The position numbers and the translations under genes are program-made. 29,212 nucleotides of DNA, taken from the IMG/VR virus record IMGVR_UViG_3300030061_002550, positions 4,629 through 33,840 of that record; one strand, written 5' to 3'. Below the pieces are notes generated by a model that saw nothing but the letters and a program-made list of their open reading frames with translations, was not told the DNA's origin and ran no database searches. Below are positions 4,548 through 26,314 of the stretch, piece by piece (within the stretch, counting starts at the first letter, position 1; each line of letters starts with the position of its first letter). The stretch comes from a virus.

Positions 4548-7500
4548 TTATCCACCAAATTGGGGAAGTGCATGTTCTCCAGCACCACAAGCGAGATTAT
4601 ATTCTAGAGCTGTTAGTAATGGACCTCTTGCCGATGCTGTTGCAGTGTCATTACTATAATCAATTCTATCCATTGATGATGAACCTCCAGGAGAAGGACC
4701 CTTTCCACCACCGAAGTAACCAAAATTAATATTACCTGTTGCAGCGTGTCTATTTTTTACAGCACTTAATGGACCTTTTGGTGTTGCTGTTGCAGTATCA
4801 TTACTATAATCAACTCTATCTACTTTTGATACATTTGGTGATGTATAACCACCAGTAAAATATCCATAATCAGCATTACCTGCTGCAGCAAAGTAGGCAC
4901 TACTATAACTTAAATTACCTCTTGGTGATGCTGTTGCAGTATCATTACCATAATCAACTCTATCTACAAATGATAGTACACCAGCCCATACAGTACCACC
5001 ACCAATCCATCCAAAATTAGCATTACCTGTTGCTGTTGCTTGTGCTCTGTTGTTTGCTAATGGACCTTTTGATGATGCTGTTGTACTATCATTAGAAAAA
5101 TCAAGTCTATCTACTGTTGATATTGGAGGATTAGCAGGACTACCACCAGCCCAATATCCATAATCTTTATTACTTACTGCTGCTCTACCATAAGCAGCAC
5201 CAGCAAGATAAGTTCTTTGTGGTGCATCTGCTGTATCATTAGAATAATCAAGACGATATACATCTGATTTTCCAGGAGAACCACCCTGAAAATATCCATA
5301 ATCAGTACTACTACATGCATCACCATTATATCTACCTACAGCCATATTACCTTTTCTTGCTGCCACTACCGTATCATTCGCAAAATCAATTCTTTGTATT
5401 AATGTTAATGGACTAGGATAACCTTGAGTCCAATATCCACGTTGTGATGATGGATAGTATTGACGAGTGACAATATTAGTAAACTCAGAAACTGTGCTTC
5501 CGACTATTGGTAGTGCATTACCTCTGGCACTTGATGATGCCGTACCATCTTTAGCTACACTTAATGCACCTCTTACTAGTGCTACTACTGTATCACTACT
5601 ATAATCAATACGATCTACTGTTGATATTATACTTGGAGTACCACCTCCACAGAAATATCCAAAACTTCTACTACCATTTGCTGCTAATCTTCTTCTAGCA
5701 ACAGTTAATGGACCTTTTGGTGTTGCTGTTGCAGTATCATTAGCATAAGTAATTCGATCTACTGTTGTTACTGGTCCAGGACTAGGTGTTCTACCAGTAC
5801 CAGCATATCCAAAATCTTCAGTACCCGTTGCACCTACTCCATATCTACTACTACTCAATGGTCCTTTATCTACTGCTGTTGCAGTATCATTATTATAATC
5901 AATTCTTTGTACTTGTGAATTATAAGGACTAAAACCAGTAACAAAATATCCATAAGATTTATTACCAACTCCTGCCATATAAGCTCTAGCAGTATTCAAT
6001 GGACCTTTTGTTACTGCATCTGTAGTATCACTACCATAATCAAGTCTATCTACTGTAGATTCTGTAGGATTATCACCAGCAAAATATGCAAAATTAACAT
6101 TAGATACTGCTGCCATCGCAATTTTAGCACTAGTCGCATTACCTTTTGCTACTGCTATTGGTGTATCATTAGAATAATCAATTCTTTCTATTGTTGATGT
6201 AGCAGCAGGAACTTCTCCACCACCAAAGTATCCATGAGAAGAACTACCTGTTCCTGCTGCTAAACGTCTAGCAATACTTAATGGACCTTTTACTGCTGCT
6301 GTTTCTGTATCATTTGCATAATCAATTCTATTTACATCTGATTTCCAATCAGTAGCAGGAACAGCAGGATTATTACCACCAGCGATATATCCAGCACCAT
6401 AAGAACCAACATATCCTTGTGAGAATGTTTGTGGAAGTGCATTTGCTTGAGAACTGAAAGCACCCCTCAAAGAATTACTACCTCCAAGAATAGGTGCTAC
6501 AAGTGTAGCTTTTGGAGTATCATTACTATAATCAACTCTTTCTATTGATGTTATTGTACCAGGTTGACCACCCATAAAGTATCCATGAGTCGTATTACCT
6601 GTTGCTCCATGTCTATATCTACCCGTATTTAATGGACCTCTTGCTGATGCTGTTGCCGTATCATTCGCATAATCAACTCTATCTATTGTTGATATAGTAG
6701 GACCAGGAGAACCACCACCCCAATATCCAAAATCTTTATTACCTGTTGCTGATTGGTATGTTCCTGCAGCAGATAATGGTCCTTTTGCTACTGCTGCTAC
6801 CGTATCATTACTATAATCTAATCTATTTACTATTGATTTATTATTACCACCACCAAAATATCCAAATGAAGGATTACCTGTTGCTCCACCATAATTTGTA
6901 GTTTCACTTAATGGACCTCTTGGAGATGCTGTTGATGTGTCATTGGCATAATTAATTCGATCAACTGATGATACGGCAGAAGGAGCATTACCACCACCAA
7001 CATATCCAAAATCTTTAGTACCTGTTGCCATTGTACCAACTCTATTACTAGTCAATGGACCTCTTATTGATGAAAGTACCATATCATTAGAAAAATCAAC
7101 TCTTTCTACTCTCGATATAACAGTGTTAGGATGTACATCACCACCAGTAAAGTATCCGTGATTTAAACTAGCTACTCCTCCAACATAAACACCACCACCA
7201 GCAGACAAATAACCTCTTCTTGTTGGTGATGTATTATCATTAGCATAATCAATTCTTTCTACTAATGTATTATAATTATTACCATCACCATAATATCCAT
7301 AAGGATAAGATACTGTTGGATTATTTCCGAAGGCAAATGGAGTGCTTATTGTTAATGAATATTGTGAAAGTCCATCTTCTTTAGAACTCAATCCACTTAT
7401 CGCATCTGCTGTTTCAGTTAAATTAGATATCGATATTGCTGTTGCTGTATCATTACTATAGTCAATTCTATTTACTGTTGATTTTGGACCACCTGAAGGA

Positions 7501-10292
7501 GGAGCACCACCACCAACGTATCCATAAGAAGCATTACCTGTTGTTCCTGGTCTTATGGTACCATCAGTCAAAGGACCTTTTGGTGATGCTGTTGTTGTAT
7601 CACTAGAATAATCAATTCTATCCACTACTGACGTTATAGGATCACCTCCACCACAGAAGTATCCATAATTAGCATTACCTGTTGCATTTGCCTCATATCT
7701 GGTAGTAGATAATGGACCTTTTAGTACTGATGTTGCAGTATCACTACTATAATCAACTCTATCTACTATTGATTGTTGACCACCAGAACCTTTAGCAGCA
7801 CCCCAATATCCATAATGTGGGTTACCTACTGCTGCATTACAACGACTACCATAAGTTAATGAACCTCTTTCTAATACATCTGCTGTATCATTAGAATAAT
7901 CAATTCTTTCTACTGTTGTTATTGCAGGATTACCAGCACCCAAATACCCATAATCTTGATTACCTGCACCTGCAAATTGTGATCGAGTAGAAGATAATGG
8001 ACCTTTTGCTACTGCTGTTGCTGTGTCATTACCAAAATCTATTCTATCTATTATTGATGTATCTGGACTAGCACCACCAGCAGCATACCCATAATTAGTA
8101 TTACTTACTGTTGCTTTATACTTACCAGCAGCAGTCAAGTTACTTTTTATTGATGTTACCGTATCATTACCATAATCAATTCTACATACTTCTGTTCCAA
8201 ATTCACCACCAACCAAATATCCATATTCATTTTTTCCAAAATTTCTAGTTCCACTTACTTCTTCACTACTAGAAACAGTTGTTGAATATATAATCTCTCC
8301 TATTGGAAGTACATTTTCTCTAGCACCGACAGCTGCCACATAATTCCTAGCAGCACTTAATGGACCTTTTGTTGTTGCTGTTGCTGTATCATTAGAATAA
8401 TCAATTCTACTAATATCTGATCTTTGACCAGGAGAAGCAGGATCAAAACCACCACCATGATATCCAAAATTACGGCTACCTGTTGCTCCATGTCTATATC
8501 TACCAGCAGCTAATGGACCTTTCTGTAATGCTTCTGCTGTATCATTAGCATAATCAACTCTTTGTACAAATGTTTGTGCAGCAGAAGGCCAACCAGGACC
8601 ACCACTAACGTATCCATAAGAAGCATTACCTGAAGCTGACTTATTAAATGCTGATGGTGATATATTATCTAATGTACCTCTTACTACCATTGTTGCAGAA
8701 TCACTAGCATATTCAATACGCTCTATCTCTGATGTAGCAGGATTACCACCAGCAAAGTATCCAAAATCTTTATTACCTACTGCAGCTCTACCTTCTTTAG
8801 CAGATTTCTGAGTACCTCTAAATGGACTTACTGCAGTATCATTAGAAAAATCAGTTCTAATCATATTTGATAGACTACTACCACCAGGGTTCTTAGCACC
8901 AACCCAATATCCATAATTATTATTAGATACACCTGTAATATAATCTGCGTTACTAGTTAAATTACCTTTTGGTGATGCTGTTGGTGAATCGTTTGAATAA
9001 TCAATTCTATCTACTAAAGTAGCACATGAAGGTTCACCACCAGCAATATACCCATAATTATTATTACCACAAGCACCATGTCTTTTTCTAACACTAGTTA
9101 ATGGACCTTTTACTGCTGCTGTTGTTGTATCATTATTAAAATCAAGTCTATCTACTGTTGAACTGATAGAAGGAACTAAACCACCAGCCCAATATCCATA
9201 AGCAGGTCCTGCAGCTACATCTCTAATATATTCAGTGTTTGATGCTGTGCCTTGTAGTCCTACTCCTAGTGCATCACCAGCAGCACTTGTTGATGCACCA
9301 TTATATCTGGCTGCTGTTAGATTACCTCTTACTGTAGGACTTGTTGTATCATTATCATAATCAATTCTATATACTGTGGTTTTAGCATCAGCAAAACCAT
9401 TCAAATATCCATGAGTTGTATTACCTGTTCCAGAATGTTTCTGCTTTGAAGCAGGTAAATTAGCTTTTGGTGATGCTGCTGTTGTATCACTAGAATAATC
9501 AATACGATCTACTACTGATTGAGCACCAGGACCAGGTAGTTGGTGACCACCACCAAACCATCCATAATTAGAATTACCAGATGCTGCAAGATAACGCCTA
9601 CCAGCACTTAATGGTCCCTTTGCTAATGCTTCTGCGGTATCATTAGAATAATCAATTCTATCTATAAATGATACCGCCTGAAAACCACCACCAATATATC
9701 CATAATTTTGATTACCAACTCCTGCAGATTGAGCAGCACCTGCTGCTGCCCTATCTAATGGACCTTTTGGTGTTGTTGCTACAATATCATTAGAAAAATC
9801 AATTCTACTTACGGTTGTTTTAGAAGGATCACCACCACCCATAAGATATCCATAATTTCTATTACTTGCTCCTGATTGTCCCGAACTAAGGGCCAATGAA
9901 CTTAAGGGACCTCTTACTAATGGTGATGCTGTATCATTACCATAATCAATTCTTTCTATTGATGATATTTGAGTTACTGGACTTCCAATTTTTCCACCAA
10001 CAGCATATGCATGAGTAAGACTACTTACTGCTGCAACTTTAAATCTTCCTTGACCTAATGGACCTCTTACTGATGTATTTAATGTATCATTATTATAATC
10101 AATTCTTTGTACTGTTGATATTTGAGTATTGTAATCTGGATTAACACCACTAATACAATATCCAACATCACCTTTTGCTACTATTACTGGTGATCCAATC
10201 ATCCATACATCCGATGCCGTATCCCAAGAACCAGTTTCCTGACGCTCTCCTACATCTCCTAATGTAAATACTCCACTTTTATTGCTTGCCAT
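4548..10292 (-). CDS. Giant kelch-like propeller-repeat protein A (adhesin/tail fibre-like)
   Basis: 1914 aa. A short N-terminal region (1-45, 'GVFTLGDVGERQETGSWDTASDVW') is shared with the two paralogues and may attach the protein to the virion. The rest is 36 repeats of about 48 aa with consensus G-Y-aromatic-x-G-G-G, a variable loop, ST-V-D-R-I-D-Y-S-N-D-T, a short polar stretch, then K/R-G-P-L. Non-repeat linkers starting near residues 339, 668, 975, 1283 and 1591 divide them into six groups of six. The glycine doublet, paired aromatics and repeat length suggest kelch-like beta-propeller blades, hence six six-bladed propellers in a row. No signal peptide or membrane segment. The start overlaps the sulfotransferase end by 14 bases. 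A virion receptor-binding role is inferred from the fibre-like gene upstream and the phage context. The reading frame is intact. Confidence 0.9.
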   Translation of the reverse strand: MASNKSGVFTLGDVGERQETGSWDTASDVWMIGSPVIVAKGDVGYCISGVNPDYNTQISTVQRIDYNNDTLNTSVRGPLGQGRFKVAAVSSLTHAYAVGGKIGSPVTQISSIERIDYGNDTASPLVRGPLSSLALSSGQSGASNRNYGYLMGGGDPSKTTVSRIDFSNDIVATTPKGPLDRAAAGAAQSAGVGNQNYGYIGGGFQAVSFIDRIDYSNDTAEALAKGPLSAGRRYLAASGNSNYGWFGGGHQLPGPGAQSVVDRIDYSSDTTAASPKANLPASKQKHSGTGNTTHGYLNGFADAKTTVYRIDYDNDTTSPTVRGNLTAARYNGASTSAAGDALGVGLQGTASNTEYIRDVAAGPAYGYWAGGLVPSISSTVDRLDFNNDTTTAAVKGPLTSVRKRHGACGNNNYGYIAGGEPSCATLVDRIDYSNDSPTASPKGNLTSNADYITGVSNNNYGYWVGAKNPGGSSLSNMIRTDFSNDTAVSPFRGTQKSAKEGRAAVGNKDFGYFAGGNPATSEIERIEYASDSATMVVRGTLDNISPSAFNKSASGNASYGYVSGGPGWPSAAQTFVQRVDYANDTAEALQKGPLAAGRYRHGATGSRNFGYHGGGFDPASPGQRSDISRIDYSNDTATATTKGPLSAARNYVAAVGARENVLPIGEIIYSTTVSSSEEVSGTRNFGKNEYGYLVGGEFGTEVCRIDYGNDTVTSIKSNLTAAGKYKATVSNTNYGYAAGGASPDTSIIDRIDFGNDTATAVAKGPLSSTRSQFAGAGNQDYGYLGAGNPAITTVERIDYSNDTADVLERGSLTYGSRCNAAVGNPHYGYWGAAKGSGGQQSIVDRVDYSSDTATSVLKGPLSTTRYEANATGNANYGYFCGGGDPITSVVDRIDYSSDTTTASPKGPLTDGTIRPGTTGNASYGYVGGGAPPSGGPKSTVNRIDYSNDTATAISISNLTETADAISGLSSKEDGLSQYSLTISTPFAFGNNPTVSYPYGYYGDGNNYNTLVERIDYANDNTSPTRRGYLSAGGGVYVGGVASLNHGYFTGGDVHPNTVISRVERVDFSNDMVLSSIRGPLTSNRVGTMATGTKDFGYVGGGNAPSAVSSVDRINYANDTSTASPRGPLSETTNYGGATGNPSFGYFGGGNNKSIVNRLDYSNDTVAAVAKGPLSAAGTYQSATGNKDFGYWGGGSPGPTISTIDRVDYANDTATASARGPLNTGRYRHGATGNTTHGYFMGGQPGTITSIERVDYSNDTPKATLVAPILGGSNSLRGAFSSQANALPQTFSQGYVGSYGAGYIAGGNNPAVPATDWKSDVNRIDYANDTETAAVKGPLSIARRLAAGTGSSSHGYFGGGEVPAATSTIERIDYSNDTPIAVAKGNATSAKIAMAAVSNVNFAYFAGDNPTESTVDRLDYGSDTTDAVTKGPLNTARAYMAGVGNKSYGYFVTGFSPYNSQVQRIDYNNDTATAVDKGPLSSSRYGVGATGTEDFGYAGTGRTPSPGPVTTVDRITYANDTATATPKGPLTVARRRLAANGSRSFGYFCGGGTPSIISTVDRIDYSSDTVVALVRGALSVAKDGTASSSARGNALPIVGSTVSEFTNIVTRQYYPSSQRGYWTQGYPSPLTLIQRIDFANDTVVAARKGNMAVGRYNGDACSSTDYGYFQGGSPGKSDVYRLDYSNDTADAPQRTYLAGAAYGRAAVSNKDYGYWAGGSPANPPISTVDRLDFSNDSTTASSKGPLANNRAQATATGNANFGWIGGGTVWAGVLSFVDRVDYGNDTATASPRGNLSYSSAYFAAAGNADYGYFTGGYTSPNVSKVDRVDYSNDTATATPKGPLSAVKNRHAATGNINFGYFGGGKGPSPGGSSSMDRIDYSNDTATASARGPLLTALEYNLACGAGEHALPQFGG
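5440..5519 (-). repeat. Conserved linker island 5, shared with 12641-12720
   Basis: These 80 bases encode the linker between propellers 5 and 6 (ending the fifth with ALPIVGSTVSEF and leading to YYPSSQR). By eye, 77 of 80 bases match the same place in gene B, while the blades on either side have clearly diverged. Confidence 0.85.
6388..6443 (-). repeat. Conserved linker island 4, shared with 13571-13626
   Basis: This 56-base segment encodes the linker between propellers 4 and 5 (LPQTFSQG-VGSYGAGY). About 53 of 56 bases match the partner in gene B. Confidence 0.85.
7327..7366 (-). repeat. Conserved linker island 3, shared with 14531-14570
   Basis: Forty identical bases encode QYSLTISTPFAFG between propellers 3 and 4 in both genes. 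One mismatch then precedes seven more identical bases. Confidence 0.88.
8241..8288 (-). repeat. Conserved linker island 2, shared with 15451-15498
   Basis: Forty-eight bases with one mismatch encode YSTTVSSSEEVSGTRN between propellers 2 and 3 in both genes. Confidence 0.88.
9235..9274 (-). repeat. Conserved linker island 1, shared with 16436-16475
   Basis: Forty bases with about three mismatches encode ALGVGLQG-ASNT between propellers 1 and 2 in both genes. Confidence 0.82.
10161..10199 (-). repeat. Conserved N-terminal island, shared with 17362-17400
   Basis: Thirty-nine identical bases encode IGSPVIVAKGDVG just before the first blade in giant genes A and B. The third giant gene lacks this sequence although it shares the preceding G-x-WDT-S-V pattern. 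Confidence 0.85.
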
Positions 10293-11115
10293 ATTGTTCC
10301 AAATAAGGACTGTCTGGATACTTCCAATATTCCAGTTTCTTATACTTATTTAGAATACGAGGAGATAAAACATCTTCAGGTCTTTTAGAAGTCCTCTTAA
10401 CTTCTTTACGAACATGGTGCATGTCCTTTAAATTCCACTGTTTTTCACTCTCACGGTGAGTATTTGCCACATTATTAAAGTCATGTTGGTAATAATCTAC
10501 CTCTAAGAAATCATATATTCTTCTCATCGTCTCATCAGGTTGATCAACCATGTCATCATATTCAACCATTAATAAATGTTTCGTATCATTTCTAAGAAAA
10601 GCTTGCAACTGTGCCCAGAGTGCCTGATCGACAATACCATCATCACCCATTAAATACTGACACCTATTATCATCATCAACTGTATATCCTTTCTCAATCA
10701 AATACTCATCTACAAATGAAACCTCATCCGAATTACGATGTATCATTGTAATAAAAGATGTGAGCACTTCTACTACATCTCTTACAGGACAAATGATCTT
10801 AGGGTTCGGAGTTATATATGTTTTAATTCTTTCTATGTTATTTGGCCATGCACGATTATGATCTATAATTATTGGTTTATCTATATTGTAATAATAATTT
10901 TCAACATAACTATGAATAATTTTATAAGCATTCTCTGGTTTTGGATAACCTATGTACTGCTCACTCTGTTTAAAATATTCTTCCGTATGATACATCAATT
11001 CCATCACTGGACTCACTGGTTCAGTATGGACATTCGGATTCTGATTTATAATACTTTTCAGTAAGGTGCTTCCAGCACGTGGAAGTCCTGCCATAAAATA
11101 ATAACTTTGATTCAT
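10279..11115 (-). CDS. PAPS-dependent sulfotransferase
   Basis: 278 aa. The family moves a sulfuryl group from PAPS to a hydroxyl or amine on a sugar, lipid or protein. The 5'-phosphosulfate loop is clear at residues 10-17 (GLPRAGST, followed by LLKSIINQNPNV). The 3'-phosphate binding motif is 'PVRDVVEVLTSFI' (110-122), with R112 and S120 as the expected contacts. Length is normal for a single-domain sulfotransferase, and there is no signal peptide or membrane anchor, so it acts in the cytoplasm of the infected cell. It lies three bases after the 203-aa oxygenase-like gene and overlaps the start of giant gene A by 14 bases, so the three are probably co-transcribed. The substrate is unknown; a phage or host surface glycan is a reasonable guess. 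Confidence 0.93.
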   Translation of the reverse strand: MNQSYYFMAGLPRAGSTLLKSIINQNPNVHTEPVSPVMELMYHTEEYFKQSEQYIGYPKPENAYKIIHSYVENYYYNIDKPIIIDHNRAWPNNIERIKTYITPNPKIICPVRDVVEVLTSFITMIHRNSDEVSFVDEYLIEKGYTVDDDNRCQYLMGDDGIVDQALWAQLQAFLRNDTKHLLMVEYDDMVDQPDETMRRIYDFLEVDYYQHDFNNVANTHRESEKQWNLKDMHHVRKEVKRTSKRPEDVLSPRILNKYKKLEYWKYPDSPYLEQYGKQ

Positions 11116-11118
11116 GAT

Positions 11119-11730
11119 TTACTTTTTATCACTAAAGAAAAATAATTGAACTAATCTACCATTCTCAAGAGTATCACCGAAGTTCTCACTATGAGAATGC
11201 CAAAGACGAGTACGGAATAATACTAGTCTATTATACTTCATAGGGCACAACATATATCTAGTCCATTCTTCTCTATTCTGTCCCATACCATAAACAGTTG
11301 TCCACCATGCTTCTTTGTATGTTGGATATCCATATGCCTGTGCATGTTCATCATCATTCGGGCACCATTCCCAACGGAGATCATTATGTCTCCAGAAAGA
11401 AGTACCACCTTCAGAAATACAATCCTCTGGTTTAGATAGGTATATGACTGCACCCCAATCCCAACCAGGATCTACATGAACATCTTGTTTATGTTTGACT
11501 CCATCTAATGAGATACGAAAGTATCCATTCTGATCTGCAGGTATTAAATCACCCTTTACTAATTTCTCAAATGCACCATGAACTTTATCATCATAATATG
11601 AACCATCAGAATTTTTCCCAGGATAAGTATATCCTCCTTCAGGTTCTGGATATTCTACAGACAATGCACGATCCCTCACCTCTTGGGGATTGTCATAAAA
11701 ATCATCAACAATAATAATGTTTTGTCTCAT
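11119..11730 (-). CDS. 2OG-Fe(II) oxygenase-like protein (DUF6445-like), intact site
   Basis: 203 aa. The start 'IIIVDDFYDNPQEVRDRAL' and the ending 'YNRLVLFRTRLWHSHSENFG' followed by NGRLVQLFFF are typical of a family related to 2OG-Fe(II) oxygenases, which I recall as DUF6445 (number from memory). Candidate iron ligands are H85-x-D87 ('DVHVDPGWDW') and H178 or H180, and R192 could bind 2-oxoglutarate, so it may be an active hydroxylase. A tryptophan-rich insert (about 112-157) separates the two halves. The gene follows giant gene B by 33 bases behind TGCTATAAT and is followed three bases later by the sulfotransferase. The 178-aa protein at 17477-18013 is a diverged paralogue that has lost most of these residues. 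Substrate unknown. Confidence 0.82.
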   Translation of the reverse strand: MRQNIIIVDDFYDNPQEVRDRALSVEYPEPEGGYTYPGKNSDGSYYDDKVHGAFEKLVKGDLIPADQNGYFRISLDGVKHKQDVHVDPGWDWGAVIYLSKPEDCISEGGTSFWRHNDLRWEWCPNDDEHAQAYGYPTYKEAWWTTVYGMGQNREEWTRYMLCPMKYNRLVLFRTRLWHSHSENFGDTLENGRLVQLFFFSDKK

Positions 11731-11746
11731 ATAATTTTTTCTTTTT

Positions 11747-11755
11747 ATTATAGCA
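11747..11755 (-). promoter_or_regulatory. Extended -10 promoter element behind the 1906-aa gene
   Basis: TGCTATAAT on the minus strand, eight bases after the stop of giant gene B and 17 bases from the ATG of the 203-aa oxygenase-like gene. It is the second of three identical copies. No clear -35 box is seen. Confidence 0.65.
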
Positions 11756-11763
11756 TATTATTC

Positions 11764-14700
11764 TTATTGTGGAAGTGCATCCTGTCCTCCAGAAAGTTTA
11801 TCAGAATTCTGAAGTCTAACTGTAACAACACCTCTTTGTAATGCTGTTGCTGTGTCATTTGAATAATCAATACGATCTATACGTGTATCATTAGTAGAAC
11901 TTGGTTCTCCACCAGCCCAATATCCATAAGAAATATTGCCTGATGCGGTAGCATGTTCAGACCTTCCAGCAGCTAATGGTCCTTTTGGTGATACTGTTGT
12001 TGTATCACTAGAATAATCCAATCGTTTTACATCAGTACGGGTAGAACCTGGACCACCACCACCAAAGTATCCATAAAAAGCATTACCTGTAGCATTACTT
12101 CCCCATCCAGTTATTCCATCTGCTCTTCTTACTGCTGTTGCTGAATCATTACTATAATCAACTCTATTTACTGTTGAAATACCAGGTTGATGTCCAATAA
12201 AGTATCCAAAATTAGCATAACCAACTCCTCTACAATGGTATTGGAAGTTATCAGCTAAATTACCTCTTGCCAATGCTGTTGCTGTATCATTAGAATAATC
12301 AATTCTTTGCACTCGTGAAGGATTATTACTTGCTCCAGCAATATATCCATAATCTGTATTTGTTGCTCCACCTGTCTGAGTATTACCATCAGCAAGATAT
12401 AAATGAGAGCTTGTCATACCTGTATCACTTGCATAATCAAGACGCTCTATATGTGTAGAAGATGAATTATTAACAGCAACATAACCATAATATTGATTAC
12501 TTACACCAGATCTTCTTCTAGTACTTGGTGCACCTACAGGATTAACAAGACTATAACGAGGAACTGCATTTACAGTATCATTAGGAATATTAAATCTTTG
12601 AACTACGTAATTATTATTATTACCACCAACCCAATAAACACGTTGTGATGATGGATAGTATTGTCGAGTGACAATATTAGTAAACTCAGAAACTGTACTT
12701 CCGATTATTGGTAGTGCATTTGCTCTGGCACTTGTTGCTGCAGCACCCTGTCTAGCAGCACTTAATGAACCTCTTATTGATGCTACTGCATCATCATTAG
12801 CAAAATCAATTCTTTGTATTGTTGACATTGGTCCAGGACTACCACCACCAATGTATCCATGAGAACTATTACTTGTTCCTGGTGCCTTATAAGCACCAGC
12901 ACTTAATAGACCTTTTGCTACTGCTGTTGCCGTATCATTACTATAATCAATTCTTTCTACTGTTGTTTTTGCACCAGGAGCACCACCAGCAACATACCCA
13001 AAATCTTCATTACCTACTGCCATCATCTGAGATCTAGCAGTTGCTAATGGACCTTTTGTAGCACATGCTGTTGTATCACTTGAATAATCAAGTCTATTTA
13101 CTGTTGATTTGGTGCTAGGTCCACCATGAGCAAAATATCCATAAGATTTATTACCTGCTGCTGAAACATATCTTGTAGCAGCACTTAATGGACCTTTTGC
13201 TACTGCTGTTGCAGTGTCATTACCATAATCTACTCTATCTACCACTGTTGAATCTGAACCAGCATCACCACCACCAAAATATCCAAAATTAACATTACTT
13301 ACTCCTCCAAAATGAATTCTAGCTTGACTTAAATTACCTCTTTGTGATGCTATTACTGTATCGTTTGAATAATCTACTCTATCTACTGATGATACGCCAC
13401 CAGGAGCATTACCACCACCCCAATATCCATAATCCACACTACTTACTGCTGCATTGAAAGCTCTGTTATTATTTAATGGACCTCTTTGTGATGCTATTAC
13501 TGTATCATTTGAATAATCTACTCTATCTACTCTTGATACTTGAGCACCAGGATCATAACCACCAGCCCAATATCCAGCACCATAAGAACCAACAGTTCCT
13601 TGTGAGAATGTTTGTGGAAGTCCATTCATTACATTACTTGTAGCAGAAGATTCAGTTCTAGCAGTAGCCATGTCAGATCTTCTTGATGCCGTTGCAGTAT
13701 CATTTGAAAAATCAATACGTTGTAATACTGTACCAGATGGATCACCACTACCCCACCATCCATAAGAAGCATTACCCATTGCTCCCATAGCCCAATTAGG
13801 AACAGCTAATGGACCTCTTACTGATGCTGTTGCCGTATCATTACTATAATCAATTCTATCTACTGTTGATCTTGTACCAGGATAACCACCACCAAACCAT
13901 CCATAATTAGAATTACCTGTTGCTCCTATATAAGCCCTAGCAAGACTTAATGGACCTTTTGGTGATGCTGTTGCTGTATCATTCGCATACTCCATTCTAT
14001 CCACAGTTGAATATGGACCAGGTTCTCCTCCCCCAAACCATCCATAATTTAAATTACCTACTCCAGTAACAGAGTATCTAGTAGAACTTAGATATCCTCT
14101 TTGCGTTGCATTTGCTGTATCATTACTATAATCTATTCTATCTATTCTTGTATAATCAGGATTTCGCCCACCAGTCATCCATCCAAAATTAGTATTACCT
14201 ACTGAACCCCACCAACGTCTTTCAACTGCTGTGTTACCTCTTGGTGATACTGCTCCTGTATCATTACTATAATCTATTCTACTAATGTAGCTAACAGTAG
14301 GACTATAACCACCACCAAATAAATATGCATGAGTCTGACTGCTTACTGCTCCCATTCCATTTGTCCCCTCAGGCAAAGGACTTCTTATTGATGATTGCAC
14401 CATATCATTACTAAAATCAACTCTATCTACATGAGTATGTTTAGAAGGAGCAGGAGCATTACCAGGACCACCAGCAACATATCCATGACCTATAAAATAA
14501 TTATCTATTGCTGTTGTTCTTGAATTTTCTCCGAAGGCAAATGGAGTGCTTATTGTTAATGAATATTGTGGAAGTCCATTCATTCTAGGACCTGCAGCTC
14601 CCATCAAAGTTCTATTACTACTCATATAACCTTTTGCTACTGCTGTTGCAGTATCATTAGTAAAATCAGTTCTATCTACTGTTGATGCTGCACTACCAGG

Positions 14701-17484: not shown

Positions 17485-18013
17485 TTTGTATTAATATTTT
17501 TTGGTACATCATTGAGTTATTTAGTTCTGTACCAAAGCCAGTTCCATACGAGTGCCACAAATCAGCACGAAATAGAACCAATCTATTATATCTTACAAAT
17601 AAATTAGTATATTCTTCCCATTGTTCCTTATTATTAACATCAAATGTCCTCATTATATCTTCCATGTTCTGCCACCCATGAATATCCATTTCACTCTCAT
17701 TAGGAAAAGATTCTAACCTTGTTATCTTATGTGTATAGAAACTTACACCTTTCTTCATGACACAATCTGCTGGCATCGTAAGATAGATTACAGCAATCCA
17801 ATCACAACCAGTATTTGCCGTAATTGTATTGGGTGTGTTTTCATTATCTACTACATTAAATGCTTCTACTATATTAATAGGACGATCTAAAATATGTGAT
17901 AATTTCTCTGGTAATTCTTGAGGGTTGATTTCTTTAACATGCTCAGAAAAACTTTTATGATACATATGTGCAACATCATAAAAATTATCTACGACAATAG
18001 TTTTTTGATTCAT
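17477..18013 (-). CDS. Degenerate oxygenase-like paralogue (likely pseudoenzyme)
   Basis: 178 aa, homologous to the 203-aa protein: both start with 'IVVDNFYD'-type sequence, share 'DW-AVIYL--P-DC----G-SF--H', and share 'YNRLVLFR--LWHS---FG' near the end. The iron site is broken here. H85-x-D87 of the paralogue aligns with T65-A-N67 ('ITANTGCDW'), and R192 aligns with M168. Only H153 in LWHS is kept. It therefore probably cannot bind iron or 2-oxoglutarate normally, yet the frame is intact, suggesting a kept structural or binding role. The gene has a good ribosome site (AAAGGT, eight bases before the ATG) and begins after the terminator at 18031-18077. It overlaps the start of giant gene B by eight bases. 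Confidence 0.8.
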   Translation of the reverse strand: MNQKTIVVDNFYDVAHMYHKSFSEHVKEINPQELPEKLSHILDRPINIVEAFNVVDNENTPNTITANTGCDWIAVIYLTMPADCVMKKGVSFYTHKITRLESFPNESEMDIHGWQNMEDIMRTFDVNNKEQWEEYTNLFVRYNRLVLFRADLWHSYGTGFGTELNNSMMYQKILIQNV

Positions 18014-18030
18014 AATTAATTACCTTTCAT

Positions 18031-18077: not shown

Positions 18078-18085
18078 TTTTGGAA

Positions 18086-18103: not shown

Positions 18104-18114
18104 ATCAGGAGAAT

Positions 18115-19908
18115 TTATTGTCCTGCTTCTAGTCTCTTCTTCTCTGCTTCTAATCTCTTCTGTTCTTCTTCCTTGGTGCCTCCAAGCATTAGGCTCTCAC
18201 CAGTCACTTCCTCAATACCATTAAGAACTTTCTTCTGAAGATCGTTAAGGAAATCCATCTTACCTTGAGGACTTTCAAGAACTTTATTCAGTCCTACATA
18301 TCCATTCGGTAATTCATTTCTCTTATCAACAATTGCTGGTGCAGATGCACGACGCATACTGTGAAGATTACCGATAGAAATACCAGTCTGAGCAGCAACC
18401 ATTTCATCCATTGCCTGATCAGCAAATCTACGCTCCCAATATGCACCATCATTATCAAGGAACTGCTGACGACTTACGACCTTACCACCATTCTGTTCGA
18501 TAAGTTTCTCAAGAATCTTATCTAGATGCTCCATCTGGTGTAGTCTATCACGAATTTCTAACTCACTAGACTTTAGGTAGTGTGTAAGTGATAGTTCATC
18601 CAAGTCGAACCAACATAGTTTCTTATTACTATCAGGACCACCACCACAATCCCACATAAGAGGCTTTGCTTTGTCTTGATCTTTCCACTTGTACTCAAAC
18701 TCACGAACCTTCTCTTTCATCTCAATGAGTTTGTACATATATCCTTCTGCCATCTGTCTTCTTGACTTAAGACTGTTCTCGAAAGCAACTGGAAGTGTAT
18801 GAGTATCAAGTAGTGCAAACTTTTCTAACTGGAAGTTTGTTCTACCCTGTGCGAGTTCCTTATCACTTTCCTCCCACTTCATTACATTCTCAAATGCCCT
18901 ATACAGGTAATCATCATCTTGAACTGCTTGTTGAGCATCAATTGGTTGATATGATAAAGAAGTTTGCTTCTTTTCAGTGCTTTCGGTAGTCATAAATTGT
19001 CCACTTGTAATTTTTGTAATTAACTTTTCCCATTGTTTGGAAATTTTCTTCCAATCACACTTTTGTGTAATATGATTCGAAGCAGATTTTGAGATCTGAT
19101 TATATAATGTTCGATCATTTTCAAAATAATCTAGAGCAGTACAACAAACCTCTGCGAATTTATTTATAAAGTCTTGTGTGACAATATATTTTTCAGTGGT
19201 TCGGGTTCCATCAATAGGAACAATAGAAGCAAACTGCTCTGTTGATACTTCTGGTAGTGCTCCAATATTTGTAATGATTGGATAAGCACCAGACTTCATT
19301 GCCTCTGCCATTGATACACAGAATACTTCCTCCCAAATATTTGGATGAAAAAAGAATGCAGCATCCTGATAACACTTAATCAACTCTTCTTGATCTACCA
19401 CTGCAGAATACTCTACATTCGGCATCGTCTTTAGTTTATCATACAATTCAATGTATGGATCATTCATCTGTCCGTATAAAGACATTGATGAAAAGATTTT
19501 AAACTTAGCATCAGGATGTCTCTGATGAATCAGGGGTATAATCGCAGGGAATAATTCTAATCCTTTATATGGTACAGAAGTATGAATAAAAGTCTTAGTT
19601 TTATTCTCTGAGAAAGTAAATTTCTCAGATACACCTGTAGCAATTACAGTAATCTTATCTTTAGGTACATGATGGTACTTAATCAATTGTTCCTTTGCCC
19701 AATGAGAAGGAATAACAATATGATCTACTGTATTATGATCGAAACCATTGAATACTGGTTGATCATATGCATGATGTGCCCAAAGAATTTTATACTTCTT
19801 ATTAGATTCTCTTAGTTTATCAGGAAAATGTGTAACTTCTACATCTTCAGGAAATTTATAATGCTCTGCAAGATAATGATATGCAGTTTCTGTAGAACCA
19901 GATTTCAT
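18115..19908 (-). CDS. GT-B glycosyltransferase fused to a phage-type C-terminal protein
   Basis: 597 aa in two unlike halves. Residues 1-305 look like a family 4 GT-B glycosyltransferase: 'KILWAHHAYDQPVF', 'VIATGV', 'PYKGLELF' and the donor-site region 'HPNIWEEVFCVSMAEAMKSG' with its spaced glutamates, then 'NIGALPEV'. This part would transfer a sugar from a nucleotide sugar in the cytoplasm. From M306 the character changes to a helical, charged region with 'PLMWDCGGGPDSN', 'KKLCWFDLDELSLTHYL' and a final 'KRLEAEKKRLEAGQ' that predicts a coiled coil. M306 (ATG at 18993) could start a separate 292-aa protein, although only a weak AGTGGA precedes it. I do not recognise a function for this half, but its style fits T4-like cyanophage core proteins. 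It follows the other glycosyltransferase by three bases and ends before a terminator. Confidence 0.85.
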   Translation of the reverse strand: MKSGSTETAYHYLAEHYKFPEDVEVTHFPDKLRESNKKYKILWAHHAYDQPVFNGFDHNTVDHIVIPSHWAKEQLIKYHHVPKDKITVIATGVSEKFTFSENKTKTFIHTSVPYKGLELFPAIIPLIHQRHPDAKFKIFSSMSLYGQMNDPYIELYDKLKTMPNVEYSAVVDQEELIKCYQDAAFFFHPNIWEEVFCVSMAEAMKSGAYPIITNIGALPEVSTEQFASIVPIDGTRTTEKYIVTQDFINKFAEVCCTALDYFENDRTLYNQISKSASNHITQKCDWKKISKQWEKLITKITSGQFMTTESTEKKQTSLSYQPIDAQQAVQDDDYLYRAFENVMKWEESDKELAQGRTNFQLEKFALLDTHTLPVAFENSLKSRRQMAEGYMYKLIEMKEKVREFEYKWKDQDKAKPLMWDCGGGPDSNKKLCWFDLDELSLTHYLKSSELEIRDRLHQMEHLDKILEKLIEQNGGKVVSRQQFLDNDGAYWERRFADQAMDEMVAAQTGISIGNLHSMRRASAPAIVDKRNELPNGYVGLNKVLESPQGKMDFLNDLQKKVLNGIEEVTGESLMLGGTKEEEQKRLEAEKKRLEAGQ

Positions 19909-19911
19909 AAT

Positions 19912-20565
19912 TTATTCTGCGAAAATATGTGAACCAACATGTTGGAGTTTAATTGTAGTATCTAGCCATGTATCATATCCTAGCATAGTTGCTCGAAAAA
20001 AGAAACTCTTGTCTTCAGATAAGAACCCATCGCCTTTTTTATGTTCCATAAAGAAATGATATGAATTATCTATTTCTCCCTGTGTTGGGGGAACATTACT
20101 ATCTTTAGTAGGAGGAGTATATTTCAATTCAGGAAAGTTTTGTGCCATTTTTATAAAGACATTACGATGAATGAGTGAGAACCCCATTCCATTTCCTTCT
20201 ATCTTAACTAAATCACCTTTCCTTTGCTCTGGTTGTATGATATTCACACAATACCTTATGGGTATTGTCTTCATCGGATATGCACCAGTAACAATATCAA
20301 CCTGATGATTCATTAACTTTAACACATCTTCAGGATTAAATCCAATATCACTGTCTAAAAATAACAAATATTCATGGTCTGTATTATTCATAAAGAAACT
20401 AACACACTTAGATCTTCCCTGAGTAATCAAAGAAGAGTTTGCCTGTGTTAGTAATCCATGTGGAATTCCACTACGAACAAAGAGCTTACCCAGATTGAAT
20501 AAACTCATCGTAGTTTTTTCTGCCACAATCCCTCCGTGACACGGAAGGGCAATCATCACACCCAT
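19912..20565 (-). CDS. GT-A type glycosyltransferase (family 2-like)
   Basis: 217 aa from the ATG at 20565. The frame is open to TTG at 20571, but the ATG gives 'MGVMIALPCHGG', which fits the first strand of a GT-A fold. It has the nucleotide-sugar features 'ITQGRSKCVSFFM' (about 48-60) and a DxD metal site, D71-S-D73, in 'YLLFLDSDIGFNPEDVL'. 'VTGAYPMK' follows, a common pattern in short phage and cyanobacterial glycosyltransferases. No membrane segment, so it is a soluble cytoplasmic enzyme. Sugar and acceptor are unknown. It lies behind the 1898-aa giant gene and its TGCTATAAT element, with the second glycosyltransferase three bases downstream, so the pair probably acts in one pathway. Confidence 0.88.
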   Translation of the reverse strand: MGVMIALPCHGGIVAEKTTMSLFNLGKLFVRSGIPHGLLTQANSSLITQGRSKCVSFFMNNTDHEYLLFLDSDIGFNPEDVLKLMNHQVDIVTGAYPMKTIPIRYCVNIIQPEQRKGDLVKIEGNGMGFSLIHRNVFIKMAQNFPELKYTPPTKDSNVPPTQGEIDNSYHFFMEHKKGDGFLSEDKSFFFRATMLGYDTWLDTTIKLQHVGSHIFAE

Positions 20566-20600
20566 AAACAATTATATTTGTTTCTTATATATTATAAGAT

Positions 20601-20629
20601 ATTATAGCACACTATTACTAAAATGTCAT
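20601..20629 (-). promoter_or_regulatory. Promoter-like element behind the 1898-aa gene
   Basis: TGCTATAAT lies at 20609-20601. Here a fair -35 box (ATGACA, 20629-20624, one mismatch from TTGACA) stands 17 bases before TATAAT, inside the last codons of the giant gene. A second TATAAT follows at 20596-20591. This is the best of the three copies and should drive the two glycosyltransferase genes. Confidence 0.68.
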
Positions 20630-23600
20630 TGGAACCTGAGGAAGTGCATTTGATCCACCAGAACATGCTGCGACATATGATGCAGGAGCATCTAATGAAC
20701 CTTTTACTACTGGTGTTGCTGAATCATTAGCAAAATCAATTCTTTCCACTACTGAATGATAAGGATGAGGACCAGGTTCACCACCAACAAAGTATCCATG
20801 ATTTATATTACCTGCTGCTCCAAGGTTATGTCTAGAAAAATTTAATGGACTTTTTGGTGCCAATGCTGTTGTATCACTAGAATAATCAAGACGTTCTACA
20901 AGTGATTTAGCAGGATCACCACCACCAAAATATCCGTAATCAGCATTACCTGTTGCACCCATTTCTCTTCTATCAAGAACTGCTCTTACTGTACATGTTG
21001 TTGTATCACTCGAATAATCAAGTCTTTGTATTTCTGATCCTGCAGGATAATTACCAGCAAAATATCCATAAGATTGATTACCAACTCCTCTTACCATTCT
21101 TTTTGCAACAGTTAATGGACCTTTTGCTACAGTATTTGTGGTATCATCAGAAAAATCAAGTCTAGATACAAATGTTGTTCCAGATGGGGCAGAAGGAGTA
21201 GCACCACCAGCCCAATATCCATAATCACTGGTAGCAGCTGCTCCAAATTGTCCTGTTTGACCAGATGTAAATGAACCTTTTGCTACTGTTAATGCGGTAT
21301 CATTAGAATAATCAAGACGAGTTGTTGTTGCAGCTGGTTGAGCAAAATACCCAAAATTTTCATTACCTGTTGCTGTATTATTCCAAGTACCAGGACTTAG
21401 GGTTCCTCTTGATGGTGCTGTTACTGTATCATTTGCATAATCAATTCTCTTAATTGCCTCCGTGGGATGTCCAGGAGCTAAACCTTGGAAATATCCTCTT
21501 GCAAAAGTTGGTATTATTTGAATTGGATTTGTATTCCACTGCTCAGATGTTTGACCAATTGTATGTAAAGATAATGAATTTTCCCTACAACTTGTTCCAC
21601 CAGACATTGCACCACCCAAATACGCTTTACTCTCACCTCTGGTTATTGCTGTTGCCATGTCATTTGCATAATCAATACGTTGTATAGTAGGTTGGTAATA
21701 TCCCTGAACATAACCATAATTTTCATTACCATGACTAGAAGCATACGTTGCGGATAAAGGATTAAGAGTTTCTAAATAACCTCTTACTGTTGCTGTTGCA
21801 GTATCATTACTATAATCAACTCTATTTACTGTTGTTGGACCACTACCAAAGTACCATCCATAATTAACATTACCTGTTGCAGTACTTCTCTGCCCTATGG
21901 CATAACTTAATGGACCTTTTTCTGATGCAGCAACTGTATCATTCGCAAAATCAAGACGAACAATTCTACTACCAGTATTATTATAATATCCATAGCCAGC
22001 ACCTGCTGTTGCTCCTCTTTCATGAACGCTAGAATTTCCTGTAGATCTCTCCAACCCACCAGCAAGATCATTCGCATAATCAAGACGTTCCATTGATGTT
22101 CCTGTAGCAGTATATCCATAATTCTTATTTCCAAATGCACCAGCTGAATCATCAGCAGCAATCCTATTTCCTACTGTCATCACATTGGTATCGTTCGCAT
22201 AATCAAGACGATGAATTGTTGATGTCTGATGAGAACTAGGACCTGCTTCCCCACCCATCCAATATCCACTAATAAGACTACTTACGGCACCATTATTAAC
22301 CTGAAGACCTCTAGGGAAATTTGCTTTATTGATTGGATCTACACCATCATTAGAGTAATCCATACGTTCTATGTTGGACTTACGATAAAGTCCACCACCA
22401 AGATATCCACCAAAAGAAGTTCCATTAGAATATGTTACTGTTGATGTATAAGATTGTGGAAGTGCATTTGCTTTAGGACTTGCTGCTGCTAATGCCCCTC
22501 TAGCAAGAGTCAATGGACCTTTTACTACTGATGTTGCAGTATCACTACTATATTGTATTCTATCTACTGCTGAATATTCACCAGGAGAACCACCACCCCA
22601 ATATCCATGAGAAAGATTACCCGTTGCTGCTCGCCAACCTTTACTAACACTTAATGGACCTTTAGTTGGTGATGTTCCTGTATCACTAGAGTAATCAACA
22701 CGATCTACTGTTGAGTATCCAGGATGACCACCACCCCAATATCCAAAATCGTTATTACCTGTTGCTCCAGGAGATATTCTAGCAAGACTTAATGGACCTC
22801 TTGGTGATGCTGTTGGTGTATCATTACTATAATCAATCCTATCTACTGTTGTTACAGGACCAGGACTAGGATTACCACCAGTACCAAACCATCCATAAGA
22901 AGGAGTACCTGTTGCTGCTAGATGATATCTAGCAGATGTTATTGGACCTTTTACTAATGCTACTGCTAAATCATTACTATAATCAATTCTATGTACTGTT
23001 GTTCTATAACCAGGATGACTATCACCACCAGCAAAGTATCCATAAGAAGAATTACCTGCAGATCCTGTACCAAACCAAGTAGCAGTTAATGGACCTTTTG
23101 GTGCCATCACTGATGAATCACTAGAATAATCAAATCTATCTACTGAAGATACTTCAGAAGGAGTTTCTCCACCAGCAAAGTATCCATAAGACTCATTACC
23201 TGTTGCTGAAAATTGATGTCTAACAACACTCAATGAACCTCTTACTAATGCTGTTGCTGTATCATTCGAATAATCAACTCTATCTACTACTGAACCTATG
23301 GAAGAAAATCCACCACCACCAAAGTATCCATAATCAGTAGTATTAGAAGTTAATGGACCTTGTATTTCTGGAAGTGTTTCAGTAAGACCTTTTAGTTTTA
23401 TCTGAGATACAAGAGCACGATTAGAAGTTCCAGCAAATCCTTCACCTTTAGCAACAGTCAATGGACCTTTTGCCGTTGCTGCGACTGTATCATTAGAATA
23501 ATCAACTCTATCTACTGTTGATACAAGACTAGGAGTAGCACCACCACCCCAATAACCATAAGATTGATTACCTGTTGATCCTCCGTTGTACTTAGCAGCA

Positions 23601-26314
23601 GTCAATGGTCCTTTTACTACTGCTGTTGCTGTATCATTAGTAAAACTAATCTTATCTACTGTTGATCTTGGATAAGGACTTGATGGTTGATATCCACCAC
23701 CAACATATCCAAAATCTGCACTATTAGTTCCTGATACATACGTTTTTGCCTCAGTTAATGGACCTTTCGTTACACATGCTGTAGTATCACTCGCAAAATC
23801 AATACGATCTACTGTTGATTTAACACCCGATGGATCAGTACCACCACCCCAGTATCCATAATCAGCACTCATTACAGCACCTGTTCCTTTTCTTGCAACA
23901 GTCAATGGACCTTTTGCTACTGCTGTTGTCATATCAGTAGAAAAATCAAGACGATCTACTGTTGTTACAACACTCGATGGATCTTCACCACCACCAAGAT
24001 ATCCATAATCTTTAGTTGATAATCCAGCACCAAAATGTCTAGCAACAGTTAAATAACCTGCATCTCCTAAAGTTCCTGTATCATTTGTATAATCAAGACG
24101 TTCTATATCTGTTATAGCAGCATTTGTATCAGCATTATATCCACCACATCTATATCCATAATTAAGACTAGTGAAAGCTCCAATTCTTCTACTTATATGA
24201 CTTAAATTTCCCTTTACTAATGCATCAGCAGTATCATTACCAAAATCAATCCTATCTATTGTTGATATTGAACCAGGATTACCACCACCCATAAAATATC
24301 CATATCCTGGTGAAATTGATAGTTCATTCAAGGGACTATAATCCCATGTCATACCACCAGTTAAATAACCTTGTGATTTTCCTGGATCTAGTGTTGTTTC
24401 TGAAACAGAAGCAGGTGTTGCATATGTATAATCATATTGGAATGATCTAAGTCCACTAAGAACAGCTTCTTTAGAACTTGATGCTCCTTCCCAGACCCAT
24501 CTTCTACCAGCACTTAATGGACCTTTTTCTGTTCCTGTTGATGTATCATTAGTAAAATCAAGACGATGAACTTTTGATGTTCCTGGATTTCCTCCACCCC
24601 AATATCCATAAGATTTATCATTACTTGTAGAACCTGCAAAACTACCATTACCACCAGCTAATGGACCTTTTGGTGTTGCTGCTGTTGTATCAGTAGAAAA
24701 ATCAATACGATATACTTCACTAGAATCACCACCCAAATATCCATACGCAAGAGTACTAGATCCACTCCAACCATTTGTGTTTGCTGGAAGATTTGCTATT
24801 GTTGGTGCATTTACAGTATCATTACTAAAATCAATTCTATCTATCGATGATTTTGATGGAGTACCACCACAAATATATCCATAAGATTGATTACTTAATC
24901 CTCCAGCAGCATATCTACCACTAGTTAATGGACCTTTTGTTATTCCTCCTGCAGTATCATTATTAAAATCAATTCTTTCTACTGTTGTTCCTGCAGCTGC
25001 CTTACCACCAATATATCCGTAGTTAGTATTCTGCACACCAAATCTTCGTTGACCTGGACTTATACCGCTAGAAGATCTTTCTGATGCTGTTGCCGTATCA
25101 TTCATATAAGACAATCTTTGGACTTTATTACCTGTACCATTAGTAGTATAGAAATAATTTAAAGTACTCCATGCAACACATTGTTCCACAGCTGATATCA
25201 TGTTGCCTTTATGTAAACAAGTCGCAGTATCATTATCATAATCAAGACGATCTATTTTTGATACCTGACCTGGTACACCAGGTTCATCACCACCAGCAAA
25301 ATATCCATAAGGAACTCCTTCTGAATGATTAGTTGATAACTCTGGAAGACCTTTAGTTCTATTACCTGTTCCTCCACATCCCCATGTTCCATCTGAAATA
25401 TTTCCCTTTAATACTGCTGTTGCTGTATCATTAAAATAATCAATTCTTTCTAATACACTATTACCAGGAGAAGCACCACCATGATATCCAGCAATAGAAT
25501 TTCCTGTTGATCCAATATGTCTTTTTCCAACACTTAATGGACCTTTTGCTACACAATTTGTTGTATCACTACTAAAATCAAGACGATCTACTGTTGATAT
25601 ATGACCAGCTGGATCACCATATCCACCAGCAATATATCCATATGCACTATTTGATGATCCACCACCATCATAATTTACTGTACTTAAATTTCCTTTTGCT
25701 ACTGCATTTGTTGTATCACTACTAAAATCAATACGATCTATAGAACTATATGGAGCACCTCCAGCAGCATATCCATATGCCATATTACCAAATCCCATAG
25801 AAATGCTTCTAGCTAGCGTTAGATCTCCTCTATCTAATGCTATTGCTGTATCATTACCAAAATCAATACGTTGTATACTAGAATTTGCTCCTCCATAAAA
25901 ATATCCATAATCTATATTATGTGAAGTGTTGTAAGTATCTGTGGATGTTAAAAGATAAGTTCTTACTGCTGCTGTTACTGTATCATTAGCATAATCAAGA
26001 CGATGTACCCTTGATGTATCAGGTGCAGGATTATCATTACATCCAGAAAAATATCCATAAGATTTACTACTTAATCCCTCTACACTACGTGCACCATTAC
26101 TAATAAGTTCGAATGAGGATCTAGCTGGACAAAGATTGGTATCGTTAGCAAAATCAATACGCCAAATATGATTTTTATCATATCCACCAGCCATATATCC
26201 ATAATTACCTAAAACTGGTTCTAATTTTTCGGTAAGAAATACATTTGATAATGTATCCCATGTGCCTCTATCCTGTTGTCTACCAACTTGACCTAATACA
26301 AATATTCCACTCAT
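20618..26314 (-). CDS. Giant kelch-like propeller-repeat protein C (adhesin/tail fibre-like)
   Basis: 1898 aa, the first-transcribed of the three giant paralogues. The N-terminus ('SGIFVLGQVGRQQDRGTWDTLSNVF') resembles those of A and B. I again count 36 blades in six groups of six, but the linkers are unlike those of A and B (near residues 320-331, 615-671, 966-988, 1281-1303 and 1578-1605; the second is longest, with 'YDYTYATPASVSETTLDPG'). Architecture is therefore conserved although linker sequence is not, and C is the more distant paralogue. Several blades in group 5 are short or irregular ('YGYTATG', 'YGYYNNT'). The start is supported by AGAGGT eight bases before the ATG, and the gene follows the 958-aa fibre gene by 12 bases, so both are probably expressed late together. 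A virion receptor-binding role is inferred. Confidence 0.9.
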   Translation of the reverse strand: MSGIFVLGQVGRQQDRGTWDTLSNVFLTEKLEPVLGNYGYMAGGYDKNHIWRIDFANDTNLCPARSSFELISNGARSVEGLSSKSYGYFSGCNDNPAPDTSRVHRLDYANDTVTAAVRTYLLTSTDTYNTSHNIDYGYFYGGANSSIQRIDFGNDTAIALDRGDLTLARSISMGFGNMAYGYAAGGAPYSSIDRIDFSSDTTNAVAKGNLSTVNYDGGGSSNSAYGYIAGGYGDPAGHISTVDRLDFSSDTTNCVAKGPLSVGKRHIGSTGNSIAGYHGGASPGNSVLERIDYFNDTATAVLKGNISDGTWGCGGTGNRTKGLPELSTNHSEGVPYGYFAGGDEPGVPGQVSKIDRLDYDNDTATCLHKGNMISAVEQCVAWSTLNYFYTTNGTGNKVQRLSYMNDTATASERSSSGISPGQRRFGVQNTNYGYIGGKAAAGTTVERIDFNNDTAGGITKGPLTSGRYAAGGLSNQSYGYICGGTPSKSSIDRIDFSNDTVNAPTIANLPANTNGWSGSSTLAYGYLGGDSSEVYRIDFSTDTTAATPKGPLAGGNGSFAGSTSNDKSYGYWGGGNPGTSKVHRLDFTNDTSTGTEKGPLSAGRRWVWEGASSSKEAVLSGLRSFQYDYTYATPASVSETTLDPGKSQGYLTGGMTWDYSPLNELSISPGYGYFMGGGNPGSISTIDRIDFGNDTADALVKGNLSHISRRIGAFTSLNYGYRCGGYNADTNAAITDIERLDYTNDTGTLGDAGYLTVARHFGAGLSTKDYGYLGGGEDPSSVVTTVDRLDFSTDMTTAVAKGPLTVARKGTGAVMSADYGYWGGGTDPSGVKSTVDRIDFASDTTACVTKGPLTEAKTYVSGTNSADFGYVGGGYQPSSPYPRSTVDKISFTNDTATAVVKGPLTAAKYNGGSTGNQSYGYWGGGATPSLVSTVDRVDYSNDTVAATAKGPLTVAKGEGFAGTSNRALVSQIKLKGLTETLPEIQGPLTSNTTDYGYFGGGGFSSIGSVVDRVDYSNDTATALVRGSLSVVRHQFSATGNESYGYFAGGETPSEVSSVDRFDYSSDSSVMAPKGPLTATWFGTGSAGNSSYGYFAGGDSHPGYRTTVHRIDYSNDLAVALVKGPITSARYHLAATGTPSYGWFGTGGNPSPGPVTTVDRIDYSNDTPTASPRGPLSLARISPGATGNNDFGYWGGGHPGYSTVDRVDYSSDTGTSPTKGPLSVSKGWRAATGNLSHGYWGGGSPGEYSAVDRIQYSSDTATSVVKGPLTLARGALAAASPKANALPQSYTSTVTYSNGTSFGGYLGGGLYRKSNIERMDYSNDGVDPINKANFPRGLQVNNGAVSSLISGYWMGGEAGPSSHQTSTIHRLDYANDTNVMTVGNRIAADDSAGAFGNKNYGYTATGTSMERLDYANDLAGGLERSTGNSSVHERGATAGAGYGYYNNTGSRIVRLDFANDTVAASEKGPLSYAIGQRSTATGNVNYGWYFGSGPTTVNRVDYSNDTATATVRGYLETLNPLSATYASSHGNENYGYVQGYYQPTIQRIDYANDMATAITRGESKAYLGGAMSGGTSCRENSLSLHTIGQTSEQWNTNPIQIIPTFARGYFQGLAPGHPTEAIKRIDYANDTVTAPSRGTLSPGTWNNTATGNENFGYFAQPAATTTRLDYSNDTALTVAKGSFTSGQTGQFGAAATSDYGYWAGGATPSAPSGTTFVSRLDFSDDTTNTVAKGPLTVAKRMVRGVGNQSYGYFAGNYPAGSEIQRLDYSSDTTTCTVRAVLDRREMGATGNADYGYFGGGDPAKSLVERLDYSSDTTALAPKSPLNFSRHNLGAAGNINHGYFVGGEPGPHPYHSVVERIDFANDSATPVVKGSLDAPASYVAACSGGSNALPQVPMTF

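Follow-up and report, generated by a model that had tools for sequence, protein, structure and literature searches.

Kelch-like propeller arrays in a conserved enzyme cassette of T4-like marine cyanophages as a candidate modular tail appendage

Introduction

Kelch-type proteins are already known in phages. Jumbo phages encode kelch-type propellers, such as CBB_550, CBB_552 and CBB_554 of phage CBB and the proteins of PhiPA3 and Noxifer, but these chains are much shorter than those considered here (about 260-700 aa) and we found no triplet arrays or enzyme cassette described for them. One of them, CBB_552, was detected by mass spectrometry in the virion of CBB, a phage with tail whiskers (PMC5259590), and a kelch-repeat protein has been mentioned in cyanophage P-HM2 (PMC3037559). 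Named relatives lie in Synechococcus phage S-SKS1, whose SWZG_00001, 00287, 00289 and 00291 (phrog_19111) are direct homologues of the proteins described below. These are 12-blade arrays, with two propellers per chain as opposed to six in the window, and they are annotated as hypothetical, with no function assigned in the record. As in the window cassette, sulfotransferase, oxygenase and GT4-C-like genes lie between them.

Outside phages, KLHL12, KEAP1 and SAKe6 likewise form six-bladed propellers from blades of ~48 residues with a glycine doublet, whereas the phage arrays lack the canonical tryptophan and the BTB/BACK domains and carry up to six propellers per chain. Cellular Kelch domains often serve as adaptor platforms, as in the KLHL proteins, and the BC and DA loops make up the ligand face of KEAP1. 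Moreover, phage receptor-binding proteins that are DGR targets work in a comparable way, with hypervariable exposed loops on a fixed scaffold. The arrays differ from these in that variation is spread over many propellers and seems to arise partly by exchange of whole propellers; no reverse transcriptase was seen among the genes of the window. In the open-access literature that we searched, we found no description of propeller-quantised arrays, of a triplet cassette or of exchange at the level of propellers.

Results

A probable cyanophage record resembling S-SKS1

The window is a stretch of 29,212 nucleotides, positions 4629-33840 of the 41,208-base virus record IMGVR_UViG_3300030061_002550. 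One flank carries what we take, judging from the translations, to be T4-like replication genes (gp32-, gp59-, PhoH- and ThyX-like), and a similar replication-gene order is annotated in S-SKS1, a Llyrvirus with Synechococcus WH7803 as its host. The other flank encodes fibre-like structural proteins of 958, 982 and 933 aa. Because the flanking genes are S-SKS1-like and S-SKS1 also has kelch-array homologues, the record most likely belongs to a T4-like marine cyanophage resembling S-SKS1. Of 13 records with the cassette, 7 contain photosystem II reaction-centre genes (psbA/psbD-type); the window's own short record has none. A glutamine riboswitch (RF01739, window positions 23-77, minus strand) scored exactly at the gathering threshold and is consistent with a marine cyanophage.

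Three chains of 36 blades

A motif scan and a blade HMM agree that proteins A, B and C contain 36 blades of ~48 aa apiece (Table 1). From motif to motif, the spacing measures 41-54 residues within a block and reaches 65-104 residues only after blades 6, 12, 18, 24 and 30; the probability of finding the five longest among 35 spacings at exactly those positions by chance is 1 in 324,632 per protein. These counts are not independent of one another, since the chains can be aligned end to end, B and C being 46% and 40% identical to A, and the N-termini are common to all three. Between A and B, each linker is specific to its position in the chain and most are almost the same in sequence, with a nucleotide identity of 81-96% compared with 63% for the blades. 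The earlier note, written from the letters alone, had counted 36 blades in each of three open reading frames, with linkers after each sixth blade and different linkers in protein C. Our scans bear this out, although some of the C linkers, different as they are from those of A and B, can still be aligned.

Table 1. Features of the kelch-array locus in window coordinates.
Feature	Coordinates	Strand	Remarks
Kelch-array protein A	4548..10292	-	1914 aa, 36 blades, six propellers; slot: after sulfotransferase
Kelch-array protein B	11764..17484	-	1906 aa, 36 blades, six propellers; slot: after DUF6445_2
Kelch-array protein C	20618..26314	-	1898 aa, 36 blades, six propellers; slot: after fibre-like protein
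Propeller A1 (blades 1-6)	9243..10190	-	
Propeller A2 (blades 7-12)	8298..9224	-	
Propeller A3 (blades 13-18)	7356..8249	-	
Propeller A4 (blades 19-24)	6417..7325	-	
Propeller A5 (blades 25-30)	5493..6419	-	block used for AF2, pTM 0.90; kelch fold by Foldseek
Propeller A6 (blades 31-36)	4554..5465	-	
Propeller B1	16444..17391	-	
Propeller B2	15493..16428	-	
Propeller B3	14554..15462	-	
Propeller B4	13594..14511	-	
Propeller B5	12691..13602	-	
Propeller B6	11767..12666	-	
Propeller C1	25322..26227	-	
Propeller C2	24440..25333	-	
Propeller C3	23390..24328	-	
Propeller C4	22439..23356	-	
Propeller C5	21548..22435	-	
Propeller C6	20630..21523	-	
Fibre-like structural protein, 958 aa	26327..29203	-	matches virion and tail-fibre PHROGs; adjoins gene C
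GT2, putative glycosyltransferase, 219 aa	19912..20571	-	phrog_1574; weak glycosyltransferase match; conserved member
GT4, group-1 glycosyltransferase N-terminal half and C-terminal domain without assigned function	18115..19908	-	
DUF6445_2, oxygenase-like paralogue	17477..18013	-	8 bp overlap with gene B
DUF6445_1, oxygenase-like	11119..11730	-	HxD...H...R kept
Sulfotransferase	10279..11115	-	PF13469, phrog_27463; 14 bp overlap with gene A
2OG-Fe(II) oxygenase	3853..4515	-	PF13640; conserved 3' cassette member
NodU/TobZ-type carbamoyltransferase	2434..3849	-	PF02543/PF16861; 3' cassette end, in some cassettes

The blocks are predicted to be kelch-fold propellers

Given an alignment of 45 six-blade blocks, AlphaFold2 returned a confident six-bladed propeller for block A5 (pLDDT 88.6, pTM 0.90). 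Foldseek comparison of this model with the PDB gave the Kelch domain of KLHL12 as top match (2vpj, E 4e-18), followed by the designed SAKe6 and by KEAP1, the best matches having E values of about 1e-18 to 1e-17 and TM scores of about 0.8-0.87. Among predicted viral structures, Foldseek matched S-SKS1, a kelch-motif protein from a Burkholderia phage, and structural proteins from the phages Noxifer, PhiPA3 and CBB. Structure prediction thus shows the propeller fold and supports, for each chain, a model of six six-bladed kelch-fold propellers, which is what the earlier note had proposed. A prediction for residues 1-989 of A (three propellers; pLDDT 35, pTM 0.38) was uninformative on propeller arrangement.

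The blades keep the glycine doublet G12/G13 at 90-92%, with a spacing of about 48 residues, and Tyr or Phe at position 27 at 99%. The kelch tryptophan is absent, there being no Trp downstream of position 27 in the blade alignment. All Pfam kelch models remain below their cut-offs, Kelch_4 in protein C alone giving a match to mention (E 0.0017, 18.7 bits against 21.6), and we therefore file the repeat as kelch-like and not as a Pfam kelch member. The block profile matched one PDB sequence only, SAKe6FR (E 3e-6), and a phmmer search of the PDB with whole protein A gave no match. The profile of phrog_19111, a PHROG without assigned function, matches across the repeat regions (E 1e-226, 2e-211 and 5e-194). 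N-x-S/T sequons are present in many blades (NDT/NDS, 21-27 per chain) but were discarded as evidence of glycosylation, as they fall on a conserved turn of the fold.

The unit of count is the propeller

Relatives turned up in 266 viral stretches and in a small number of phage records that bear names (S-SKS1, Marine virus AG-345); a pattern-based scan of 84,980 genomes of bacteria and archaea found none. In 74 of the 85 complete ORFs, the number of blades is divisible by six (6 blades in three, 12 in 32, 18 in 13, 24 in nine, 30 in ten and 36 in seven). By our own reading of each case, the non-multiples comprise the split frames of S-SKS1 (9+3 and 9+3) together with one S-SKS1 ORF at the record end, a 25-blade split frame whose missing portion adjoins, totals of 13, 13 and 7 that we read as spurious first matches, a weak case of 11, and a 17-blade ORF whose last blade has apparently been truly lost. 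The two broken S-SKS1 genes are interrupted at 43163-43181 and 44952-45009 (L010); a third S-SKS1 kelch gene spans the record ends, and the pieces of these genes carry, in part, annotations as separate hypotheticals.

Homologous chains carry from one to six propellers, whereas the number of blades per propeller is fixed at six. Paralogues of one genome are sometimes unequal (24/36/24, 30/30/36 and 12/30 blades), and equal chains occur in 13 of about 16 three-gene cassettes, our own count, which allows for split frames and one undetected block and which includes many closely related records. The identical counts in the window had been taken as a sign of selection on an exact assembled shape. 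Six blades per block does hold among the homologues, but the number of propellers per chain does not stay constant and, because it varies, the inference fails. We reject an exact 6 x 6 shape and count in single propellers instead of 6 x 6 chains.

One could ask whether such counts simply follow from recent tandem amplification of repeats that have no strong function, with the block structure as a by-product. The six-blade blocks are indeed alike within and between chains (about 33-52% identity). However, no block is a recent copy of another in its chain, on which ground we set aside an origin by recent tandem duplication, and divergent phages have retained the six-blade blocks, the linkers specific to each position and the cassette. 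Core positions are, moreover, fixed in orthologue pairs, and we regard this explanation as very improbable.

Propellers shared between otherwise different chains

Comparison of records G020 and G022 gave two examples of sharing at the level of propellers. Between their kelch 2 genes, propeller 2 is 96-100% identical, compared with about 38-65% for propellers 1 and 3, and propeller 1 of G020 kelch 3 matches propeller 1 of G022 kelch 2 at 90-100% over most blades. In a scan for shared runs in otherwise different chains, all 10 runs are in register and 8 of them stop at blade 6. Five have the length of exactly one propeller, and two of these five represent a single event seen in near-identical contigs; the sample is small, some pairs are related, and in-register sharing is also expected from common descent. 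These few cases suggest that whole propellers may be exchanged. The A and B linkers are near-identical in DNA and therefore could act as joints for exchange.

Divergence is concentrated in loops

In a set of more than 2000 blades, variability is highest at positions 14-19, which separate the glycine run from the strand that follows it, and at positions 42 and 45-46, which surround the arginine. By strand order in the A5 model, these positions correspond to the BC and DA loops. At a set of loop positions chosen after the variability profile was known (14-19, 42, 43 and 45-47), 64% of codon comparisons show a replacement; the figure for the remaining positions is 17%. The orthologue pairs compared are about 70-81% identical, and several of them share a member. 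Synonymous-only change does not rise at the loop positions, and core blade positions stay fixed in orthologue pairs. In the same pairs of closely related phages, flanking enzymes are mostly 91-98% identical and kelch proteins mostly 66-81%, the lower enzyme values being a sulfotransferase at 85% in G020/G022 and non-orthologous copies at 44-45% in two pairs. The wealth of replacements in the loops may reflect relaxed constraint rather than diversifying selection.

Relaxed constraint would fit arrays that act as structural spacers or decoration, that is, strings of propellers forming whiskers or tail decoration that has no specific receptor, with loops that are merely unconstrained. In favour of this reading, the CBB kelch protein is structural and comes from a phage that has tail whiskers, the fold recurs in structural proteins of Noxifer, PhiPA3 and CBB, and chain length changes in units of one propeller. 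Against this stands the fact that the loops are replaced far more than the remaining protein and the flanking enzymes, and propeller exchange together with variation on the loop face is typical of recognition proteins. On balance, we think a role as spacer or decoration unlikely.

The arrays are embedded in a recurrent cassette

In the records viewed in full, the recurrent order is a fibre-like gene, kelch 1, GT2, GT4, DUF6445_2 and kelch 2, followed by DUF6445_1, sulfotransferase, kelch 3, 2OG-Fe(II) oxygenase and often a carbamoyltransferase. This cassette, usually with three kelch genes, is kept across divergent phages beside fibre-like genes, and in certain phages its order is rearranged or a member is missing. 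In the window, its genes are nearly contiguous or overlapping and co-directional with the fibre-like genes. Phage S-SRM01 has a similar sulfotransferase, but its record was unmatched in the kelch searches. The C-terminal half of GT4 (18115-19008, minus strand), for which no clear PHROG or family match was found, stands alone as SWZG_00290 in S-SKS1 and is apparently a gene of its own in G020 and G022.

The HxD...H...R positions of DUF6445_1 are kept in 24 of 24 rows. DUF6445_2, which usually lies directly upstream of a kelch gene, has lost the HxD and the 2OG-binding Arg in all 16 rows, and because of this loss it looks like a conserved inactive partner; judging from these motif positions, we consider it a putative inactive oxygenase. 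The type of kelch N-terminus tends to follow the upstream neighbour, with 11 label changes on a tree compared with 31 in shuffles; this tree, built from the N-terminus and first propeller, has long deep branches with poor support and places A and B of the window in one group. A related N-terminal motif is present on many arrays, and a search for it in other phage records returned nothing meaningful. None of the kelch genes is preceded by the late-promoter core ATAAATA, and the motif shows no enrichment. It is strongly depleted on both strands of the window (2 found, 15.8 expected), and the sole copy in the fibre region outside the window is located about 50 bp upstream of the gene for the 933-aa fibre protein.

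The interleaving of kelch genes with sulfotransferase, glycosyltransferase, oxygenase and carbamoyltransferase genes, and the frequency of adaptor-platform roles among cellular Kelch domains, would also suit scaffolds outside the virion, intracellular or secreted, that are produced late in infection and serve the co-encoded enzymes as platforms, either as substrate or as partner, for example for modifying host surface glycans or small molecules. Nevertheless, the kelch genes are contiguous and co-directional with fibre-like genes and many arrays share the N-terminal motif, and hypervariable loops are more in keeping with an external target than with partner enzymes that are conserved. We therefore consider an enzyme scaffold quite improbable.

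Discussion

We believe that the paralogous kelch arrays form a modified, modular external tail appendage for surface recognition that diversifies through its loops and through propeller exchange, and we put the probability of this reading at roughly 0.55. The arrays would be made together with the tail fibres of a T4-like marine cyanophage. Each propeller would offer a rigid core and one conserved face, with its variation carried in the BC and DA loops, through which the arrays could bind varied host surface structures such as polysaccharide, S-layer or pili. Diversification would proceed by rapid loop replacement and by gain, loss and swap of whole propellers, which we propose as the reason for blade totals that are divisible by six. 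The glycosyltransferases, sulfotransferase, oxygenases and carbamoyltransferase would most likely modify the arrays by hydroxylation, glycosylation and sulfation, but they could instead act on host or phage glycans or on neighbouring fibres. Virion location, ligand binding and modification of the arrays are the steps that we infer, and by analogy CBB_552 may serve as a precedent for the first of them. Tentatively, we can go further and imagine an enzyme-modified appendage of three chains with up to 18 binding faces, in each phage, in which the propeller is the evolving unit, gained, lost and exchanged across genes and phages via conserved linkers, and the loops of the ligand face evolve fast. 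This would be a strategy of phage diversification distinct from DGRs and from the swapping of tail-fibre tips.

Marine cyanophages and their hosts are engaged in a fast race at the cell surface, and many large phage proteins in this setting are known only as "hypothetical". S-SKS1 is cultured on Synechococcus WH7803, which makes the appendage reading directly testable. If it is true, a phage family builds its recognition device from interchangeable propellers that are chemically modified by the phage's own enzymes.
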